Shown here one piece after another: positions 41,145-60,649 of a DNA stretch of 64,000 bases. The DNA is from Microcoleus sp. AS-A8 (GTDB taxonomy: Bacteria > Cyanobacteriota > Cyanobacteriia > Cyanobacteriales > Coleofasciculaceae), in the NCBI GenBank assembly GCA_039962225.1, contig JAMPKV010000001.1, positions 620,001 to 684,000 on the forward strand, read 5' to 3'. A model generated the notes under the pieces. That model had not been told where the DNA came from and did no database searches. It saw nothing but the letters and a program-made list of their open reading frames with translations. Each line of letters begins with the position of its first letter. Position 1 is the first letter of the stretch. A program made the position numbers and the translations under genes.

Positions 41145-44100
41145 CTACTGACGTTGAGCTAGCTTGGTGACAAGAGCAACTAACTCGTTTGGCTCTACAG
41201 GTTTAGACAGATGGCTTTGAAACCCTGCTGATAGCGCCTGCTGATAGTTGATTTCGCCCGCATAGGCGGTAAGAGCGATCGCCCGAATTTGCCCTCCTTG
41301 CTCTGGCGGTAAGCTTCTCACTTGTTGTATGAGCATATATCCATCCACATCCGGCATCCCGATATCGCTCAACAGCAAGTCGGGTACAGATTGAGTTAAA
41401 GCCGCAAGTGCGTCATGGGCTGAGCCAACGGCTCTTACCTGCGCTCCATACTGTTCCAGCAGAAAGACGACAAACTCCCGTGTATCGACATCATCATCGA
41501 CCACTAAAATTTCTATGCCCTGCAAATCCAAAGATGGCTCAGGCTGTTCGCTGTTTTGCTCGTTTTGGGGTTGAGACAGCAGGAGAGGGATTTTAACAAT
41601 AAAGGTGGCTCCTTGCCCCTCACCAGCGCTATCTGCCTGAACGGTTCCCCCATGCAGTTCGACTAGGTGACGGACAATTGCCAACCCTAACCCCAGCCCG
41701 CCAAACTTGCGGGTGGTAGTAGCATCGGCTTGGCGGAAGTAGTCAAATACATAGGGTAGGAAGTCTACCGGAATTCCCTTACCCGTATCGCTGACGGTAA
41801 TTTGGGCGTGAGAACCAATGCACTCTAGCCGGATATCGACCCGTCCTCCTGGGGGTGTGAACTTAATCGCGTTGGAGAGCAGGTTCCAAACGACTTGCTG
41901 TAAGCGGCTGGCATCCCCTGAAACGACGTCCGCCTGGGGTGCAAGTTGTGTACACATCTGAATGGATTTAGCTTCAGCCGCTAGACGTACCGTTTCCATC
42001 GCGGCTTGAATGGTGGATGTCAGAGCGACGGGAGTAATATTCAAGCTGAGTTTGCCGCGCAAAATCCGGGAGACATCGAGCAAATCTTCAATTAATTCAG
42101 CCTGTAACCTGGCATTGCGTTCGATAGTTGCCAAGGCTTCAGAAGTTTTATCGGCATCAAACTTTCGGGTTTGCAGTAATCTTGACCAGCCGAGGATAGG
42201 GTTGAGGGGCGATCGCAATTCGTGAGAGAGTACGGCTAGAAACTCATCTTTAATCCGGTTAGCCTGTTCAGCCGCTTCGCGAGCGGCTTGTTCCTGTTGT
42301 AGGAGAAGTTCGCGCTGCTGTTCTAGGCGTTTTTGTTCTTCAATATCTGTTGCCGTACCAAACCATTTGATCACCTGACCCCATTCATTCTTCACGGGTA
42401 CGGCTTGGTGCAAATGCCAGCGATATACCCCATCTGCCCGTCGCATTCGACCTTCGGCTTGATAGAGGCTGCCATCTCGCTGGGCGGCTCTCCAGTACTC
42501 GACCAGACTTGGGAGGTCATCGGGATGGACGAGCGTTTTCCAACCTTCGATTCGTACTTTTGCCAAAGTTAATCCCGTGAAGTCGAACCAGCGTTGATTG
42601 ACATCGAGTAGTATTCCTTCGGCGTTGGTAGTCCACACCAACTGCGGGATAGATTCGGCTAAATACCGATAACGCTCCTCGCTCTGACGCAAGGCTTCTT
42701 CAGCTCGTTTGCGATCGGTGATGTCAACGGCAACCCCTCCGACTAGGCGTTGCCCAGAGACATCTTCAATGGGAAATTTGTACACCAGAAAATCACCGAG
42801 CGTACCATCACAGCGCGGGGCCGTTTCGAGCGCTTCAATCACCTGATTGCTTTGGGCAACCTTTTGAATGTTAGTGAGAAATTGCTCGGCGACTTCAGCC
42901 GGATATAGATCGAAGACGCTTTTGCCGATGACGTTATCCTTGGGAAAGTCAAAAATGCTGGAATAGGTTTGACTGAGGTAGATTATACGCCCGTCTGCAT
43001 CCGTAATCCAAGAAGCGGCTGGGCTATTATTCATAAACGCTTGAAAGCGTTCTTCACTTTGGCGTAGTGCCACCTCAGCTTGTTTGCGATCGGTCACATC
43101 CTGAAAGACCACAACCGCCGCCACAATTTGTTCTTCGCCGTCCAGAATGGGAGCTGAGTTCGTATTCATAAAGATGCGACAACCATCACTTCGGTATAGC
43201 TCGATTTCTTCGTTGGTTATGGTTTCGCCCGTTTGCAGCGATCGCATCAGGGGATAGTCTTTGGCGTTGTAAGGTTGACCGTCTAAACGCAAGCCCTGAA
43301 ACGGTGCAATCTGGTCATACTCTCCCAATTGCAGCGATTGTTCGTAGTCATAGCCAACAATTTGTTTGGCTTGTTTGTTCGTGAGTACCAATTTGCCCGA
43401 TGCGGCATCTGCAATCATCACGCCCGCAGGCATCTGTCGTAATACAGCCTCAAACCGAGCACGTTCGATCGCCAATTCCTGGAGTACCCGTTCCCGGTCG
43501 GCTTCGGCTTGCTGGCGTTGGCGCATCGCGGCTTTTTGTTCACTGATATCGACCACAACGGAGATTGCAGATTCCGGTTTCCCAGACGCATCACAAATCG
43601 CTGCTACATTGTTGCTCACCCAAATTTCAGAGCCGTCTTTGCGGATATAGCGCTTCTCGATCGCATAGCTCTCCCCTTGCGTGATCAAGCGATGGAAAAG
43701 CTCCATGTTGTAGGGCAAATCGTCCGGATGAGTGATATCTTGCTTCCGCTTCTGTAGCAGTTCTGCCATCGGATAACCGACGATATCGCAATATTTTTGG
43801 TTGACCAGCACGAATTGAGCTGTTAAATCCATTTGTGCAATCCCGACCGTTGCCTGGTTCACGATCGCCCCGAACCGCTCCTCACTAGCGCGGAATGCCT
43901 CCTGAGTCTGTTTGAGGTCGGTGAGGTCAGTAATCATCGCAAACAACCCTTTGACCTCTCCTTGGCTGTCAATGTCAGGAATATATTGTCGGCGAACATA
44001 CCGGGAACCTCCCTCCCTAAAGGGCACCCATAGTTCGCTCGTAACGGGTTCTCCGGCTAAGGCTTTGTCAATATCAAAGCGTAGATACTGATATGCCGTT

Positions 44101-46925
44101 TCACCGACCAATTCTTCCACGCGCTGACCGATAATTTCCTCTACAGGTTTTCCAAACCAGCCGGTAAAAGCACGGTTGGCGAAGCGATAACGGCGATCGC
44201 CGTCAATATAGGCAATCAGAGCTGGAACGGTATCTGTAATCAGTTGCAATTCGGCTTCTCGTTGTTGCAGAGCCTCCTGTGCGTGTTTGCGATCAGTGAT
44301 ATCGGCAACAAAAATAGACAGCCCATTCGATGAGGGATAGATCCGGTTCTCGAACCATCGGCTCATTGATGGATAGAAGTATTCAAATTGAAGGGGAATT
44401 TGTTCGGCTACGGCACGTTGTAGTTCAATTTGAAACTCGCTACCGATGGTATCGGGATATAATTCCCAAATGTTTTTACCCAGGAGTTCTTCTCGGCTTT
44501 TGCCTGTGACTTCCACGACCCGGTCATTGGCATAGGTATAACGCCAATCCCGATCCAATGCTAAAAACTGATCCTCAATTCTGGATAGTACGTTCTCCAG
44601 AGCGTCCTTGGCGGACTGGATCTCAGCTCGTAAAACTTCCTCGCGACGGGTTGCTTCCTGCCGCATTTGAGCCAGTTTCAAGGTTGCCTCGACTCGTGCC
44701 AGCAGCTCGCGAGCCGAAAAGGGTTTAATCAGATAATCATCCGCTCCAGCTTCGAGCCCTTCAATCCGAGAGTCTTCCCCAGCACGGGCAGACAAGAGGA
44801 TGATGGGAATTTCCCGGGTATGGGGGTCATCCCGCAGCGATCGCAACAACCCCAAACCATCCAGCCTTGGCATCATCACATCCGTCAAAACCAAGTCGGG
44901 AAGCTGCTGACTCATACTCCTTAAAGCCGCCACTCCATCTACTACGGTTTCCACTTCATACCCTTGAGTGACTAACAGGCGTTTTACATAATCGCGCATA
45001 TCTGCGTTATCGTCAGCCAAAAGAATATGGGCAGAGGGAGTACAGGATAAAAAGGGAGCACAGGAGGAAACAAAGGATAATTCTCCCCCGACTTCTGTTG
45101 CTACTCTACTTCCCCTGATCTCTTCCTCTGGCAACCAGCGCAAGGCTTCTTCCACATAGGTTGCAGCCCCCATTGCGGTTGAAGTAAGGGTGCGAGATGT
45201 ACTAATGCGTTCTGTCGGAATGTGGGCGTAGCCTGTGGGCATCAGCACGGTAAAGCAACTCCCACGATCAACAACGCTACTCACTTGAATCGTGCCGCCA
45301 TGCAGTTTGACTAATTCCTGCACTAACGACAGACCGATGCCTGACCCTTCATAGGTTCGCCCCCTTGCTCCTTCCACCCGATGGAAGCGCTCAAACAACT
45401 GCGGCATCGCTTCGGCGGGAATCCCAGTACCGGTGTCTCGGACTTCTAGCTCAATATGGTCATCCGCCCAACGTAAGGCAACCGTAATTTCTCCCTGCCA
45501 GGTGAACTTAAACGCATTGGAAAGTAGGTTGAGAACAATCTTTTCCCACATTTCCCGGTCTACATAGATGGGTTCAGGGAGTGGAGGACAGTCCACACCG
45601 AGGCGCATTCCAGCTTGTTCGATCGCGGAGCGAAACATCCCTGCTAAATCAGCAGTAAGCATCGCCAAATCTGTTGGCTCATATACCGCCTGGACTCGTC
45701 CTGCCTCAATCCGGGAGAAGTCCAACAGCGTATTCACTAGCTTGAGCAAGCGCAGGGAGTTGCGGTGAGCGGTTTCGAGGTGAGAGCGTTCGCTGGGTAA
45801 GAGTGTGGCGGAATTGACCAGCATCTCTTCCAGGGGGCCTAGCATTAGGGTGAGCGGAGTGCGAAACTCATGACTGATGTTGCTAAAGAAGATGGTCTTG
45901 GCGCGATCAACTTCAGCCAACGCTTCTGCGCGTTTGCGTTCTTCCTCGTAGGCTTGAGCGTTGGCAATGCTAGCCGCAATCTGAGCGGCAACCAGATCGA
46001 TAAATCCGCTATAGTTATCGTCGAAGAGTCGGAACGGGTTTAAACCGACCACTAAGATACCAGCTTGCCCTGTTTGCCCGGAGGCAGCGATGGGCACAAT
46101 GACCGCCTGATGCGGGGAGCGCTGCCAAGCCCCCGTCGGCAAGCGACCCAACAAGGCTTCCAAATCGCCAACCAGGCATGGCTTGTGCGTTGCGATTGCT
46201 TCTGCAAACGGCCAAGGCGAATCTGAATCGAGATAGATGCGTTCAGCAACGGCTCTGTGGTTTCGCTCGATGCCCGATGTCCCAGCCAAATAAACCCACT
46301 CCTGACCCGGATCGACCAGATAAATCATCGCAAAGGGTAGGTCGTAGGGGTTAGTTTCTAGACATTTTGCACTCCGTGTGCAGGCATCATCGAAGGTTCG
46401 GGCGTCTGCTGTCTTCGCCGCCAATTCCCGCAATAGTGCTAACTGACGCTCGCCGATAATGCGCTGCGTGTCGTCCGTGTTGGCACAGATGATACCACCT
46501 GTACCACCCCCATCGTTAGGAACCGGACTGTATGAGAAGGTGTAATAGGTTTCCTCCGGATAGCCGTTGCGCTCCATAATTAGCAGCAGCGCTTCGTCGT
46601 AAGTGCCCTCATTCTTGAGCATCGCGGATTCGGCCCTAGGCCCGACCTGATCCCAAATCTCGTGCCACACCTCAGAAGCCGACTGTCCCAGTGCTTTCGG
46701 ATGTTTGCCGCCGACAATGGATTTATAGGCGTCGTTGTAAAGGTTAATCAGTTGCTCGCCCCACCAGACAAACATGGGTTGGCGGGAGGTGAGCATAATT
46801 CGCACCGTAGTCTTCAGACTCTGCGGCCATTGCTCGACGGCACCTAGAGGGGTAGCTGACCAGTCGAGCGATCGCATCATAGCACCCGTCTCCCCTCCCC
46901 CAGCGAAAACCTGTTTCAGTGCCAT
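41145..46925 (-). CDS. Giant multi-PAS hybrid sensor with two kinase cores
   Basis: About 1926 residues from the ATG at 46923-46925 (a GTG at 46946 would add seven). Numbering below counts from the GTG. Order: PAS-like (20-160), GAF (165-335), HisKA with His near 359 (NISHEFRTPLTLML), HATPase (465-575), receiver (638-755; Asp near 688 in LTDVMMP), six PAS units (about 790-1540), second HisKA with His near 1574 ([15 protein letters not shown]), HATPase (1680-1790) and final receiver (1810-1930; Asp near 1859 in LSDIGMP). Both kinase cores keep N, G1 and G2 boxes (GLGLGLAIV in the second). No transmembrane segment is visible. None of the PAS units has the LOV cysteine motif, and the GAF lacks a bilin cysteine pattern. 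The phosphorelay inputs are unknown. Confidence 0.92.
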   Translation of the reverse strand: MALKQVFAGGGETGAMMRSLDWSATPLGAVEQWPQSLKTTVRIMLTSRQPMFVWWGEQLINLYNDAYKSIVGGKHPKALGQSASEVWHEIWDQVGPRAESAMLKNEGTYDEALLLIMERNGYPEETYYTFSYSPVPNDGGGTGGIICANTDDTQRIIGERQLALLRELAAKTADARTFDDACTRSAKCLETNPYDLPFAMIYLVDPGQEWVYLAGTSGIERNHRAVAERIYLDSDSPWPFAEAIATHKPCLVGDLEALLGRLPTGAWQRSPHQAVIVPIAASGQTGQAGILVVGLNPFRLFDDNYSGFIDLVAAQIAASIANAQAYEEERKRAEALAEVDRAKTIFFSNISHEFRTPLTLMLGPLEEMLVNSATLLPSERSHLETAHRNSLRLLKLVNTLLDFSRIEAGRVQAVYEPTDLAMLTADLAGMFRSAIEQAGMRLGVDCPPLPEPIYVDREMWEKIVLNLLSNAFKFTWQGEITVALRWADDHIELEVRDTGTGIPAEAMPQLFERFHRVEGARGRTYEGSGIGLSLVQELVKLHGGTIQVSSVVDRGSCFTVLMPTGYAHIPTERISTSRTLTSTAMGAATYVEEALRWLPEEEIRGSRVATEVGGELSFVSSCAPFLSCTPSAHILLADDNADMRDYVKRLLVTQGYEVETVVDGVAALRSMSQQLPDLVLTDVMMPRLDGLGLLRSLRDDPHTREIPIILLSARAGEDSRIEGLEAGADDYLIKPFSARELLARVEATLKLAQMRQEATRREEVLRAEIQSAKDALENVLSRIEDQFLALDRDWRYTYANDRVVEVTGKSREELLGKNIWELYPDTIGSEFQIELQRAVAEQIPLQFEYFYPSMSRWFENRIYPSSNGLSIFVADITDRKHAQEALQQREAELQLITDTVPALIAYIDGDRRYRFANRAFTGWFGKPVEEIIGQRVEELVGETAYQYLRFDIDKALAGEPVTSELWVPFREGGSRYVRRQYIPDIDSQGEVKGLFAMITDLTDLKQTQEAFRASEERFGAIVNQATVGIAQMDLTAQFVLVNQKYCDIVGYPMAELLQKRKQDITHPDDLPYNMELFHRLITQGESYAIEKRYIRKDGSEIWVSNNVAAICDASGKPESAISVVVDISEQKAAMRQRQQAEADRERVLQELAIERARFEAVLRQMPAGVMIADAASGKLVLTNKQAKQIVGYDYEQSLQLGEYDQIAPFQGLRLDGQPYNAKDYPLMRSLQTGETITNEEIELYRSDGCRIFMNTNSAPILDGEEQIVAAVVVFQDVTDRKQAEVALRQSEERFQAFMNNSPAASWITDADGRIIYLSQTYSSIFDFPKDNVIGKSVFDLYPAEVAEQFLTNIQKVAQSNQVIEALETAPRCDGTLGDFLVYKFPIEDVSGQRLVGGVAVDITDRKRAEEALRQSEERYRYLAESIPQLVWTTNAEGILLDVNQRWFDFTGLTLAKVRIEGWKTLVHPDDLPSLVEYWRAAQRDGSLYQAEGRMRRADGVYRWHLHQAVPVKNEWGQVIKWFGTATDIEEQKRLEQQRELLLQQEQAAREAAEQANRIKDEFLAVLSHELRSPLNPILGWSRLLQTRKFDADKTSEALATIERNARLQAELIEDLLDVSRILRGKLSLNITPVALTSTIQAAMETVRLAAEAKSIQMCTQLAPQADVVSGDASRLQQVVWNLLSNAIKFTPPGGRVDIRLECIGSHAQITVSDTGKGIPVDFLPYVFDYFRQADATTTRKFGGLGLGLAIVRHLVELHGGTVQADSAGEGQGATFIVKIPLLLSQPQNEQNSEQPEPSLDLQGIEILVVDDDVDTREFVVFLLEQYGAQVRAVGSAHDALAALTQSVPDLLLSDIGMPDVDGYMLIQQVRSLPPEQGGQIRAIALTAYAGEINYQQALSAGFQSHLSKPVEPNELVALVTKLAQRQ

Positions 46926-46949
46926 TACTTCCCCTTGTTGAGTCACCGT

Positions 46950-57028: not shown

Positions 57029-60000
57029 ATGACATCAACGCTGAAGCCAACGCTCAACCGTGATGCTTTCAGAGTTCTCTGGGTTGAAGACAACCTAACT
57101 GAGGCAAAACAGCTTCAAGAGTTAGAGTTACTGCTAGAAGCTCAAGGAGAAAATATTTTCTTAACCCATGTTAAGAGTATCACTGAAACGATAGAAGCGT
57201 TGAATCAGGAAAATTTCGATGTTGTTTTATTCGATTTGTCACTTCCTGAGCGCCCTGATCTACATCCTCTGACTATAATTCACGAATACATTAGCCACCC
57301 CAAAAATGGAGCTTGCCCTGCCATTATTGTGATCATAGGAGACGATGATCAACCACTCGCTCTCCAATGTATTCGCGCCGGAGTACAAGATTGTTGGATG
57401 AAAGGGAACGTCAGCCGTATTCACTTGATGGATTCCTTACGCTATGCAATCGCCAGACGGGACGCGATCGCATCTATTGCCCATCAGCAAATGCGAGAAA
57501 CTCTGCTAAGAAATCAACAGAAATATCGCTGCGCGATCTCTGAGTTTCCAGATGCGATTACTCCAACCGCACCTCAACCCTCACATCAAGAATTCATCAG
57601 CCAAGAAGAACACCGCTTTTTCACCCTCTCCCTCGATTTACTTTGTATTGCTGGTGTTGATGGTTATTTCAAGCGATTGAATCCGGTTTGGGAAACTACG
57701 CTTGGCTATACTATCTCCGAGCTGCTCAACCAACCTATTCTTGAATTGGTTCATCCAGACGATCGAAAAGCCAGCCGACGTGCCGTGCAAAAACTCAAGG
57801 ATGGTAGCATTCCCTCGCTGAAATTTCAAAACCGTTTTATCTGTAAAGATGGTTCTTATCGGTGGCTTTCTTGGACAACGGTGTCTTTTTCTCAGGAAGG
57901 TTTAATCTATGGCGTTGCCCGTGATATCACGGAGCGTAAGCATTCAGAAGCAGCCTTGCAAAGTAGTGAAGCACGATTTCGTACCTTAGTCAGCAATCTT
58001 CCTGGTGCTGTCTATCGCTGCAAGTGTGATGCTAATTGGACGATGGAATTTCTCAGCCGAGATATTGAGCGAATTAGCGGTTATCCAGCTTCAGATTTTA
58101 TCGCTAATCACAAGCGAAATTTAAATAGTATTATTCATTCTGAAGATGTTGAATCGGTCGAGCGTGCCATTCAGGAGGCTTTAGAAACTAAACAGCCATT
58201 CTCTTTGGAATACCGAATTCTTCATGGGAATGGCAGCATCCGATGGGTTTATGAAAAGGGTCAGGGTATCTTTACAACTCAAGGAGAACTACTCTGTCTG
58301 GATGGCGTGATTTTTGATATTACTGAGCGCAAACAAGCGGAAAGTGAACTTCATCGCACCCAACAATTCCTCAACTCTTTGCTGGATAATCTGCCTGTGG
58401 GCGTGTTTGCCAAAGATGCCCAGAAATTGCATTTTGTGTTCTGGAACAAGACCCTGACTGAACTGATCGGTTACAGTACGAATGAGGTAATTGGCAAGAG
58501 TGATTATGATTTATTCTCAGAAAATCACGCGAATTTCTCGAAGGCTCAAGACCAAGAAGCTTTCTTAACGGGTAAGCTAATTGATAACCCCGCAGAACCG
58601 ATTCCTACCCATCGTGGGCAACGCATCTTTCATGTCAAAAAAATTCCTATCTTTGACGAAGTCGGCAGACCGCAATATGTATTAGGAATTGCAGACGATA
58701 TTACTGAGCGCCAGCAGACAATTGATCGTTTACGCCTCTTAGAACGAGCGATCGCAGCATCGAGTAACGGCATTGTGATTACGGATGCCACTGACTCTAA
58801 TCACCCCTTAGTTTACGCCAATCCTGGTTTTGAGCGAATCACAGGTTACTCGGTAGAGGAAGTGATGGGTCAAAATTGTCGCTTCTTGCAAGGGACAGAT
58901 CGAGAACAACCCGCTCTGGCTGAGCTGCGAACAGCGCTGCAACAGGAGCGAGAATGTCGAGTTGTGTTACGGAACTACCGAAAAGACGGCTCTCTGTTTT
59001 GGAATGAATTCTCAATCTCCCCGGTGCGAAATGCCGCCGGAAAATTAACTCACCATATCGGCGTTCACAGGGACATCACCGAACTCAAACAAGCCGAAGC
59101 GGCATTAAAGCAGCAAGTGTTGCGAGAACACTTGGTAGGGGCGATGCGAGCGCGCATTCGCCGCACTCTGAACCTCAAAGAAGTCCTGACAACGGCAGTG
59201 GAGGAAGTGCGGCAGTTTCTCCAAACGGACCGAACTGTAATTTACCGCTTTTACCCGGATTGGAGTGGAGTGATAGTGGTTGAGTCCGTTGGCGAGGATT
59301 GGACACCCCTGTTTGGACTTGACATTCAAGACAACTGTTTTGCCCAAACGTATGCCTCCCAATATCAACAAGGTCGCATACGAGCGGTGGATAATATTCA
59401 TCAGGCGGGTTTAAGCCAGTGCCATATCGATCTCCTCAGCCAGTTAGAGGTTCAAGCCAACCTAGTGGTTCCTCTATTGCAAGGAGAAACCTTATGGGGA
59501 CTGCTGATTGCTCATCACTGTAGGGATTCGAGGGGGTGGAACTCCTTTGAGATCGAGTGTCTCAGCCAGTTGTCCGTACAATTGGCGATCGCCATCCAGC
59601 AATCCACTCTCTTTGAACAAGCGCAAACCGAACTCGTGGAGCGCAAGCGAGTCGAAGAGAACTTGCGCCGCAGTGAAGCGCGTGAGCGGAAACGAGCCAA
59701 GCAACTGTTAATCGCACTGCACGACCTGAAAAACACCCAAACTCAGTTGGTGCAAACTGAAAAAATGGCGAGTTTGGGTCAACTCGTGGCGGGTGTTGCC
59801 CATGAAATCAACAATCCCACCAGCTTTATCTCCTGCAATGTTGCCCCAGCGCTGGGATATACCGATGATCTACTGCATCTGATATCCCTTTACCAAAAGT
59901 ACTATGCGACGCCTCCTGCTGAAATCGAAAACGAGATTGTCGCCATCGACCTGGACTTTATCAAAGAAGATTTCCCCAAATTGCTGCGTTCCATGCAGAA

Positions 60001-60649
60001 AGGAGCCTCGCGCATCCAACAAATTGTCCTATCTCTGCGGAACTTCTCGCGTCTTGATGAAGCTGAACGTAAGAAAGTTGACCTTCATCAGGGAATTGAT
60101 AATACCTTGATGATTTTGCAAAACCGTTTGAAAGAACAGTCCAGTCGCTCGGCTATTCAGGTCATTAGAGAATTCGGTAACCTTCCCTTGGTGGATTGCT
60201 ACCCTAGCGAGCTAAATCAGGTATTTATCAATATTTTGAGTAATGCCATTGATGCCATTGAATGCAGGATGAAAAAAGATGCTTCTCTAACTCCTCAAAT
60301 TCGGATTTGTACACAAGTTTTGAGCAGCCGTAAAACGCCAGTAAACACTCAAAATTCTCAGGGTCAATGCCCAATAACCCATTCCCATTGGTCAATGGCC
60401 CATGGTCAATTCCCTATCCATTTCACTGACAAGGTGGTGATTCGCATCGCCGACAATGGAATTGGTATTCCAGAAAATGTTAACCTGCGCGTGTTTGACC
60501 CGTTTTTTACCACAAAACCCATTGGCAAAGGTACGGGTTTAGGGTTGTCGATTTCCCACTCGATTGTGGTAAAAAAACATAGAGGTGAATTATACTATCA
60601 TACACCGGATGGACAAGGGACAGAGTTTGTGATCGAGTTACCGTTTTGA
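57029..60649 (+). CDS. Sensor kinase with receiver, PAS/LOV and cyanobacteriochrome-type GAF domains
   Basis: 1206 residues. An N-terminal receiver (about 10-150) holds Asp69 in VLFDLSLP. Three PAS units lie at about 195-310, 315-435 and 443-560. The fourth (about 570-690) has the LOV signature GQNCRFLQG with Cys617, then NYRKDGSLFWNEF and HHIGVHRDIT. A GAF domain (about 705-870) contains DRTVIYRFYPDWSGVIVVES, a DxCF motif DNCF (Cys770) and the bilin-type QCH (Cys798), then ANLVVPLL and LWGLLIAHH. HisKA carries His925 (VAHEINNPTSF), and the HATPase ends in GKGTGLGLSIS. The combination predicts a photosensory kinase, possibly responding to flavin (LOV) and bilin (GAF). An in-frame insertion rich in short repeats occurs at about residues 1103-1135. 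No partner is in the immediate vicinity. Confidence 0.9.
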   Translation: MTSTLKPTLNRDAFRVLWVEDNLTEAKQLQELELLLEAQGENIFLTHVKSITETIEALNQENFDVVLFDLSLPERPDLHPLTIIHEYISHPKNGACPAIIVIIGDDDQPLALQCIRAGVQDCWMKGNVSRIHLMDSLRYAIARRDAIASIAHQQMRETLLRNQQKYRCAISEFPDAITPTAPQPSHQEFISQEEHRFFTLSLDLLCIAGVDGYFKRLNPVWETTLGYTISELLNQPILELVHPDDRKASRRAVQKLKDGSIPSLKFQNRFICKDGSYRWLSWTTVSFSQEGLIYGVARDITERKHSEAALQSSEARFRTLVSNLPGAVYRCKCDANWTMEFLSRDIERISGYPASDFIANHKRNLNSIIHSEDVESVERAIQEALETKQPFSLEYRILHGNGSIRWVYEKGQGIFTTQGELLCLDGVIFDITERKQAESELHRTQQFLNSLLDNLPVGVFAKDAQKLHFVFWNKTLTELIGYSTNEVIGKSDYDLFSENHANFSKAQDQEAFLTGKLIDNPAEPIPTHRGQRIFHVKKIPIFDEVGRPQYVLGIADDITERQQTIDRLRLLERAIAASSNGIVITDATDSNHPLVYANPGFERITGYSVEEVMGQNCRFLQGTDREQPALAELRTALQQERECRVVLRNYRKDGSLFWNEFSISPVRNAAGKLTHHIGVHRDITELKQAEAALKQQVLREHLVGAMRARIRRTLNLKEVLTTAVEEVRQFLQTDRTVIYRFYPDWSGVIVVESVGEDWTPLFGLDIQDNCFAQTYASQYQQGRIRAVDNIHQAGLSQCHIDLLSQLEVQANLVVPLLQGETLWGLLIAHHCRDSRGWNSFEIECLSQLSVQLAIAIQQSTLFEQAQTELVERKRVEENLRRSEARERKRAKQLLIALHDLKNTQTQLVQTEKMASLGQLVAGVAHEINNPTSFISCNVAPALGYTDDLLHLISLYQKYYATPPAEIENEIVAIDLDFIKEDFPKLLRSMQKGASRIQQIVLSLRNFSRLDEAERKKVDLHQGIDNTLMILQNRLKEQSSRSAIQVIREFGNLPLVDCYPSELNQVFINILSNAIDAIECRMKKDASLTPQIRICTQVLSSRKTPVNTQNSQGQCPITHSHWSMAHGQFPIHFTDKVVIRIADNGIGIPENVNLRVFDPFFTTKPIGKGTGLGLSISHSIVVKKHRGELYYHTPDGQGTEFVIELPF
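60345..60425 (+). repeat. In-frame short-repeat insertion in kinase gene
   Basis: Within the HATPase region, between N-box and G1 box, a stretch of GGTCAATGCCCAATAACCCA and related CCCATTGGTCAATGGCCCAT units is translated in frame as QCPITHSHWSMAHGQFPI. Kinases of this type normally have only a short connector there. It resembles the 7-bp repeats scattered in the window. Confidence 0.6.

Follow-up and report, generated by a model that had tools for sequence, protein, structure and literature searches.

A Microcoleus sensor histidine kinase combining a DXCF cyanobacteriochrome-type GAF domain with a LOV-type domain that carries histidine at the conserved glutamine site

The window analyzed here, a stretch of 64,000 nucleotides from the genome of Microcoleus sp. 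AS-A8, contains on its forward strand (57029-60649) an open reading frame of 1206 amino acids, which we read, with roughly an even chance of being right, as a cytoplasmic, orphan sensor histidine kinase whose competent switch would be a dual-cysteine (DXCF) cyanobacteriochrome (CBCR) GAF domain, with a conserved but photochemically altered LOV domain upstream of it. This reading is built on the domain order, individual residues, their conservation, selection and the presence of bilin-making genes, from which we infer chromophore binding, the colors sensed, the direction of signaling and a weak LOV photocycle.

Domain layout of the kinase

The domain order of the protein is REC-PAS-PAS-PAS-LOV-CBCR GAF-histidine kinase, with Pfam recognizing a weak receiver, four PAS domains, the GAF domain and the kinase end. 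Together with the matches to PDB sequences, this bears out the preliminary description of the DNA, which had proposed a single kinase with LOV-type and DXCF CBCR-type domains and a receiver-like N-terminus. The features are as follows.

57029..60649, forward strand: kinase open reading frame (translation, Pfam; collinear, 90.5% identical same-genus orthologue)
57068..57457, forward strand: receiver-like domain, residues 14-143 (PF00072, PDB 6oap match)
57656..57934, forward strand: PAS 1, residues about 210-302 (Pfam)
57992..58336, forward strand: PAS 2, residues about 322-436 (Pfam)
58382..58714, forward strand: PAS 3, residues 452-562 (PF08448)
58727..59113, forward strand: LOV-type PAS domain, residues 567-695 (PDB LOV matches, PF13426, NCBIfam)
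58877..58879, forward strand: Cys617, expected flavin-adduct cysteine (motif; same in orthologue)
59066..59068, forward strand: His680 (CAC), site of the conserved LOV glutamine (alignment with LOV chain 8a3u)
59144..59626, forward strand: DXCF cyanobacteriochrome-type GAF domain, residues 706-866 (PDB matches, PF01590 at 84.2 bits)
59336..59338, forward strand: Cys770, second cysteine, in D-N-C-F (motif; same in orthologue)
59420..59422, forward strand: Cys798, canonical bilin-anchoring cysteine, followed by His799 (motif; same in orthologue)
59801..59803, forward strand: His925 in HEINNP, expected phospho-accepting histidine (motif; weak H-box alignment)
60206..60646, forward strand: HATPase_c domain with N-box, DNGIGIP and GTGLGLSIS (PF02518 at 70.2 bits)

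The strings on which the preliminary description relied are all present in the translation, namely GQNCRFLQG (614-622), NYRKDGSLFWN (649-659) and HHIGVHRDIT (675-684), as well as PDWSG (743-747), DNCF (768-771), QCH (797-799), ANLVVPLL (810-817) and LWGLLIAHH (822-830), and its numbering of Cys617, Cys770 and Cys798 agrees with the reading frame.

At the C-terminal end, the motifs of a histidine kinase are all found: the H-box with His925, the N-box LNQVFINILSNAIDA, the G1 box DNGIGIP and the G2 box GTGLGLSIS. An alignment of the H-box region to a histidine kinase chain scores 11.5 bits, which is weak by itself, and the Pfam HisKA model (cut-off 26.9 bits) gives 29.4 bits when the stretch is scanned alone and 25.9 bits with the full-length protein. 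With the GAF domain ending at approximately residue 866 and His925 lying in the H-box, the CBCR adjoins the kinase. Between the N-box and the G1 box, the ATPase domain holds a poorly conserved insert (residues about 1101-1134; 60329-60430) that contains two imperfect direct copies of a 25-nt sequence (at 60362 and 60390, 76% alike), and this insert is also present, with changes, in the orthologue of a genome of the same genus (G388). An exact repeat element as the source of the insert was rejected, as it has one genomic place only (E 0.001).

The N-terminal receiver-like domain scores 32.0 bits against PF00072 when scanned alone and 27.9 bits within the full-length sequence, against a cut-off of 30.2, with PDB 6oap as its best solved match (E 2.8e-4). 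Asp69 (57233-57235), picked by eye, is the candidate phospho-acceptor, and the Thr/Ser usual in receivers looks replaced (VIIG). Because this residue is apparently missing and the receiver is the fastest-evolving segment among those compared, it may not be phosphorylated in the normal way.

No response regulator gene was seen beside the kinase when the neighboring translations were read by eye; the neighboring genes look like those for a CobW-type GTPase, a D-Tyr deacylase and an acetyl-CoA synthetase-like protein. The signal from a promoter and terminator scan was near shuffle level. Elsewhere in the window, an open reading frame of 1933 amino acids on the reverse strand (41145-46946), with several PAS matches, represents another large multi-sensor protein.

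The LOV-type and CBCR-type sensor domains

Residues 565-693 match LOV structures far above chance, the best being 8a3u and 7r5n (E 6.9e-40 against PDB sequences), and the domain scores 87.7 bits with PF13426 and 180.7 bits with the NCBIfam YtvA-family model NF052652, the latter being under the whole-protein cut-off of 250. Cys617 occupies the adduct cysteine position of the motif GXNCRFLQ, and Asn649, Asn659, Arg618 and Gln621 are all retained. In LOV domains, the asparagine pair and the Arg and Gln of NCRFLQ are flavin-contacting residues, and the LOV domain of the kinase very probably still binds flavin. The LOV pattern, described earlier as full, is nevertheless incomplete, because the flavin-side glutamine of the last strand is replaced by His680 (GVHRDIT), which faces the Gln of 8a3u (igiQrdvt) and is presumably equivalent to Gln513 of AsLOV2. 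In the same strand lies a second histidine, His676 (59054-59056), which is Tyr in the G388 orthologue; the position is Phe or Tyr in 127 of 130 distinct Cys-LOVs.

The G388 orthologue is collinear, 90.5% identical overall and 96.1% identical in the LOV domain, and keeps Cys617, Cys770, Cys798 and His680, the last encoded by CAC in both species. The dN/dS ratios, which are rough values by the Nei-Gojobori method from one genome pair and short stretches, are 0.072 for the LOV domain (the lowest among the segments compared), 0.081 for the H-box/linker part, 0.082 for PAS 3, 0.106 for the GAF domain and 0.144 for the ATPase domain, rising to 0.25-0.31 for PAS 1 and PAS 2 and to 0.33, the highest, for the receiver (0.17 overall). 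The LOV domain is kept by selection. Decay of the domain is unlikely in view of this lowest ratio, and a sequencing error at codon 680 is unlikely as well, given the same ratio and the occurrence of CAC in two species.

The published results on LOV domains lacking the glutamine are mixed, as far as the sections of the two papers drawn on here extend. In the study of Dietler et al. (2022; PMC9098866), YF1 Q123H binds flavin, forms no adduct and gives no blue-light response, AsLOV2 Q513H binds flavin and fails in canonical photochemistry, and NmPAL Q347H loses its light response and is locked; in the tests on YF1 and on NmPAL alike, His is, with Pro, among the substitutions that abolish light responses. 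Other substitutions, for example Leu, keep signaling, a natural Met-LOV signals well, and about 350 natural Gln-less LOVs were found, 'even histidine' included (PMC9098866). The account of AsLOV2 Q513H given there conflicts with that of a second study, in which this variant has a photocycle of 27-30 s with incomplete bleaching (PMC3903614). As PMC9098866 argues that LOV domains can generally do without the glutamine, His680 lowers the case for a canonical LOV and not that for the LOV fold, and the results obtained with engineered Gln-to-His variants need not transfer to a natural His-LOV. Because the Gln-to-His and other Gln-less results are mixed, weak, fast or redox-type photochemistry is predicted by analogy for the His680 LOV, and its loss is not certain.

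Residues 694-865 match structures of the CBCR/phytochrome type, the best being 6oap (E 1.2e-52 against PDB sequences); further matches are RcaE (3.4e-34), 3vv4 (3.5e-32) and 4fof (7.7e-31). Among the best 60 of the 80 PDB sequences matched at 1e-5 or better, many chains are named phytochrome or, in the case of 3w2z, 4glq, 4fof and 3vv4, are CBCRs according to the respective papers, while the remaining matches are neutrally named (histidine kinase, diguanylate cyclase). The two domain assignments made in the preliminary description thus withstand a profile and sequence comparison, in which LOV structures are found for the one domain and CBCR/phytochrome-type chains, going by their names and known identities, appear to be better matches to the other than non-bilin GAF families. 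3vv4 is TePixJ (PMC4469895). In addition to the canonical pair Cys798-His799, the GAF domain has a second cysteine in Asp768-Asn-Cys770-Phe771, 28 residues before Cys798, and this arrangement fits the description of DXCF cyanobacteriochromes in the portion of PMC11284453 drawn on. In the genome there is also a PF05996 match at 1.5e-79 (ferredoxin-dependent bilin reductase family), together with heme oxygenase matches, two of them strong and one short and weak; the cell should therefore have a reduced bilin, for example phycocyanobilin, at its disposal.

The color states of this CBCR are predicted from its class membership. Two DXCF CBCRs covered in the sections of PMC4469895 used here have dark states at 430 and 435 nm and products at 530 and 600 nm, respectively, and the LOV protein YtvA absorbs at 450 nm (PMC4469895). 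Since both dark states would thus be blue, the LOV and CBCR domains would both answer blue light, and green-to-orange light would reset the CBCR alone. The earlier proposal that the kinase integrates two colors of light is weakened accordingly: the dark states overlap, and what stands of a second color is the light resetting the CBCR.

Distribution of the domain pair and of the histidine

A LOV-domain search covered 388 cyanobacterial genomes, 212 of which match at 1e-20. The census consists of the 149 best-scoring rows beyond the query, in each of which the best LOV match of the genomic stretch was read, and is as a consequence biased towards LOVs resembling the query. Cysteine is present at the position of Cys617 in 132 rows (129 distinct sequences), and the glutamine site of these Cys-LOVs is Gln in 129, with one instance each of Ile, Leu and His. 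In the 17 rows that lack the adduct cysteine, the residue is Ser in 11, Gly in 3 and Phe in 3; 16 of these LOV-like domains keep the glutamine.

The sole His-LOV of the census (L245, from genome G263) comprises residues 410-538 of a 933-residue hybrid kinase, reads IGVHTDVT and has the adduct cysteine; no CBCR-like GAF was found by a test of its frame for a canonical-Cys GAF. In a tree of 169 LOV domains (FastTree, midpoint root), the nearest neighbor of this domain is a Gln LOV, as is that of the pair formed by the query and its orthologue, and histidine at the glutamine site seems to have arisen twice, because Gln LOVs neighbor both His lineages. A wider set of 158 distinct LOVs, which is residue-filtered, mixed and inclusive of other phyla, has Gln in 140, Leu in 8, His in 3 (two of these being the query lineage), Ser, Val and Ala in 2 each and Ile in 1. 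Within this set, non-Gln LOVs are not very rare, and His is rare.

The preliminary description had considered the combination of LOV and CBCR uncommon. This is contradicted by the census, in which a GAF domain whose canonical Cys precedes His or Tyr shares the reading frame of at least 30 of the 132 Cys-LOVs, a lower bound given that the stretches extend no more than about 4 kb to each side and some end at contig ends. The glutamine is present in all 30 of these proteins. The first 86 stretches had given 6 of 69, and the increase derives mostly from genus g60, from which only two stretches had then been included. A further search with matches in 318 of the 388 genomes does not count the combination, since a single domain can match.

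Across all loci retrieved, 49 distinct aligned LOV segments occur in frames with a canonical-Cys CBCR GAF. Three belong to the query lineage, namely a complete and a truncated copy of the query and the G388 orthologue; the other 46 have Gln (45) or Leu (1). The second cysteine is also present in 47 of the 49. The spacing between the LOV and CBCR cysteines is 308-309 in 27 segments, 181 in 11 (the three of the query lineage and eight others) and different again in 11, and the 308-spaced group includes many proteins of about 940 amino acids from genus g60. The AS-A8 genome itself encodes a second LOV and DXCF-CBCR protein (L250/L001, 940 amino acids) with the glutamine kept and a wider spacing, which is one of the 30 census proteins that show the combination not to be uncommon. 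In three LOV-CBCR relatives of about 940-960 amino acids (L197, L300 and L301), the GAF domain, inspected by eye, has seemingly lost the canonical cysteine, with L197 keeping the second one (DSCF); these are possible pseudo-CBCRs. Among the hits listed in searches of the open-access literature, none presents a natural LOV-CBCR kinase in its title or the start of its abstract. Proteins with flavin- and bilin-type domains are, by this census, a recurrent cyanobacterial design, and natural two-chromophore integration is therefore open to study in many proteins.

Readings of the kinase and comparison with known systems

The CBCR is regarded here as the main switch and the LOV domain as a modified upstream input because the former adjoins the kinase, while the receiver, PAS 1 and PAS 2 evolve faster. 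In the proposed mechanism, the CBCR GAF beside the kinase would act as a competent photoswitch, whose 15Z dark state, in which the bilin would be anchored at Cys798 and linked at C10 to Cys770, would absorb blue light and whose photoproduct would absorb green to orange. Flipping of the bilin by light would alter the helix that leads from the GAF domain to His925 and so would set kinase versus phosphatase activity. The His680 LOV would form its adduct poorly, recover fast or respond via flavin redox chemistry, and would modulate the coiled coil that leads to the GAF domain instead of serving as an equal second photoswitch, with the three PAS domains and the receiver-like domain adding further inputs.

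That both domains are ordinary photoswitches, with the kinase summing flavin and bilin signals and His680 being tolerated, is tenable but doubtful. It would agree with the retention of the other flavin-site residues checked, with the strong purifying selection on the LOV domain, with the ability of Gln-less LOVs, the natural Met-LOV included, to signal (PMC9098866, in the parts used) and with the photocycle that AsLOV2 Q513H still shows in one study (PMC3903614, likewise); however, His, with Pro, abolished the light responses of YF1 and NmPAL (PMC9098866), and the glutamine is kept in 129 of the 132 census Cys-LOVs.

Rather unlikely is the reading of the LOV domain as a structural spacer or dimerization unit devoid of useful flavin photochemistry, which would leave the CBCR as sole light sensor. 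His680, along with His676, which of the two species only AS-A8 has, and a Cys-Cys spacing that is invariably 181 within one group of relatives would suit such a role, but Cys617, Asn649, Asn659, Arg618 and Gln621 are retained and the dN/dS ratio is the lowest among the segments compared. The reading is weakened in particular because a domain acting as a spacer could dispense with the adduct cysteine.

Unlikely, too, is a more specific variation on the altered LOV, in which a natural Gln-to-His change would have turned the domain, kept by selection along with its adduct cysteine, from an adduct photoswitch into a different flavin unit feeding the CBCR directly behind it. This unit would provide a redox or semiquinone input, or else serve as a non-cycling, fluorescent antenna that collects blue light for the green-absorbing state of the bilin, so that the kinase would have one switch, the bilin, assisted by the flavin. 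A GAF domain without bilin, acting in small-molecule or protein-protein contacts, is very improbable, for although the Pfam GAF model is generic, the DXCF and Cys-His dual cysteines, the CBCR-type matches to 1.2e-52 and the bilin synthesis genes all speak against it.

The role of the LOV glutamine has so far been argued largely from engineered mutants. The kinase provides a natural LOV that bears the substitution by which engineered LOVs lost their light response and that has nevertheless retained its cysteine in two species, under strong selection, and could reveal whether a native pocket makes His work or whether the LOV serves another purpose.

Compared with known systems, the nearest solved architecture, on the basis of sequence comparison, is that of PPHK, which we take to be the protein of the entries 6oap, 6oaq and 6ob8 ('Dual sensor histidine kinase'). 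Like the AS-A8 kinase, it combines a receiver and a CBCR GAF in one histidine kinase, and 6oap is the best solved match for both the GAF domain (1.2e-52) and the receiver (2.8e-4). In 6oap, the receiver (to about residue 118) adjoins the GAF domain (from 138) with no PAS or LOV domain between them, whereas three PAS domains and the LOV domain intervene here, and its alignment lacks a cysteine at the DXCF position, where the AS-A8 kinase has Cys770. PPHK reportedly combines its two inputs, phosphorylation and light, in the manner of a logic OR.

LOV and DXCF-CBCR proteins such as L250, L272, L277 and L307 (approximately 940 amino acids) share with the kinase a Cys-LOV and a canonical-Cys CBCR, usually with the second cysteine as well, but as a group they almost always have Gln and often a spacing of 308-309, in contrast to His680 and a spacing of 181. 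The short LOV proteins 8a3u and 7r5n, presumably of the PpSB1-LOV types, and YtvA-family LOVs have the fold, the cysteine, CRFLQ and the two Asn in common with the LOV domain of the kinase, although the aligned short LOV chains keep the glutamine where the kinase has His680. The Gln-deficient LOVs of PMC9098866 resemble it in having the adduct cysteine without the glutamine; in the parts of that paper drawn on, the natural Gln-less LOV tested is a Met-LOV, and there is neither a test of a natural His-LOV nor any reference to a CBCR partner. Finally, the TePixJ-type DXCF CBCRs (3vv4 and 4fof) share the DXCF second cysteine and the Cys-His pair, but their entries are named methyl-accepting chemotaxis proteins, whereas the AS-A8 protein is a kinase.
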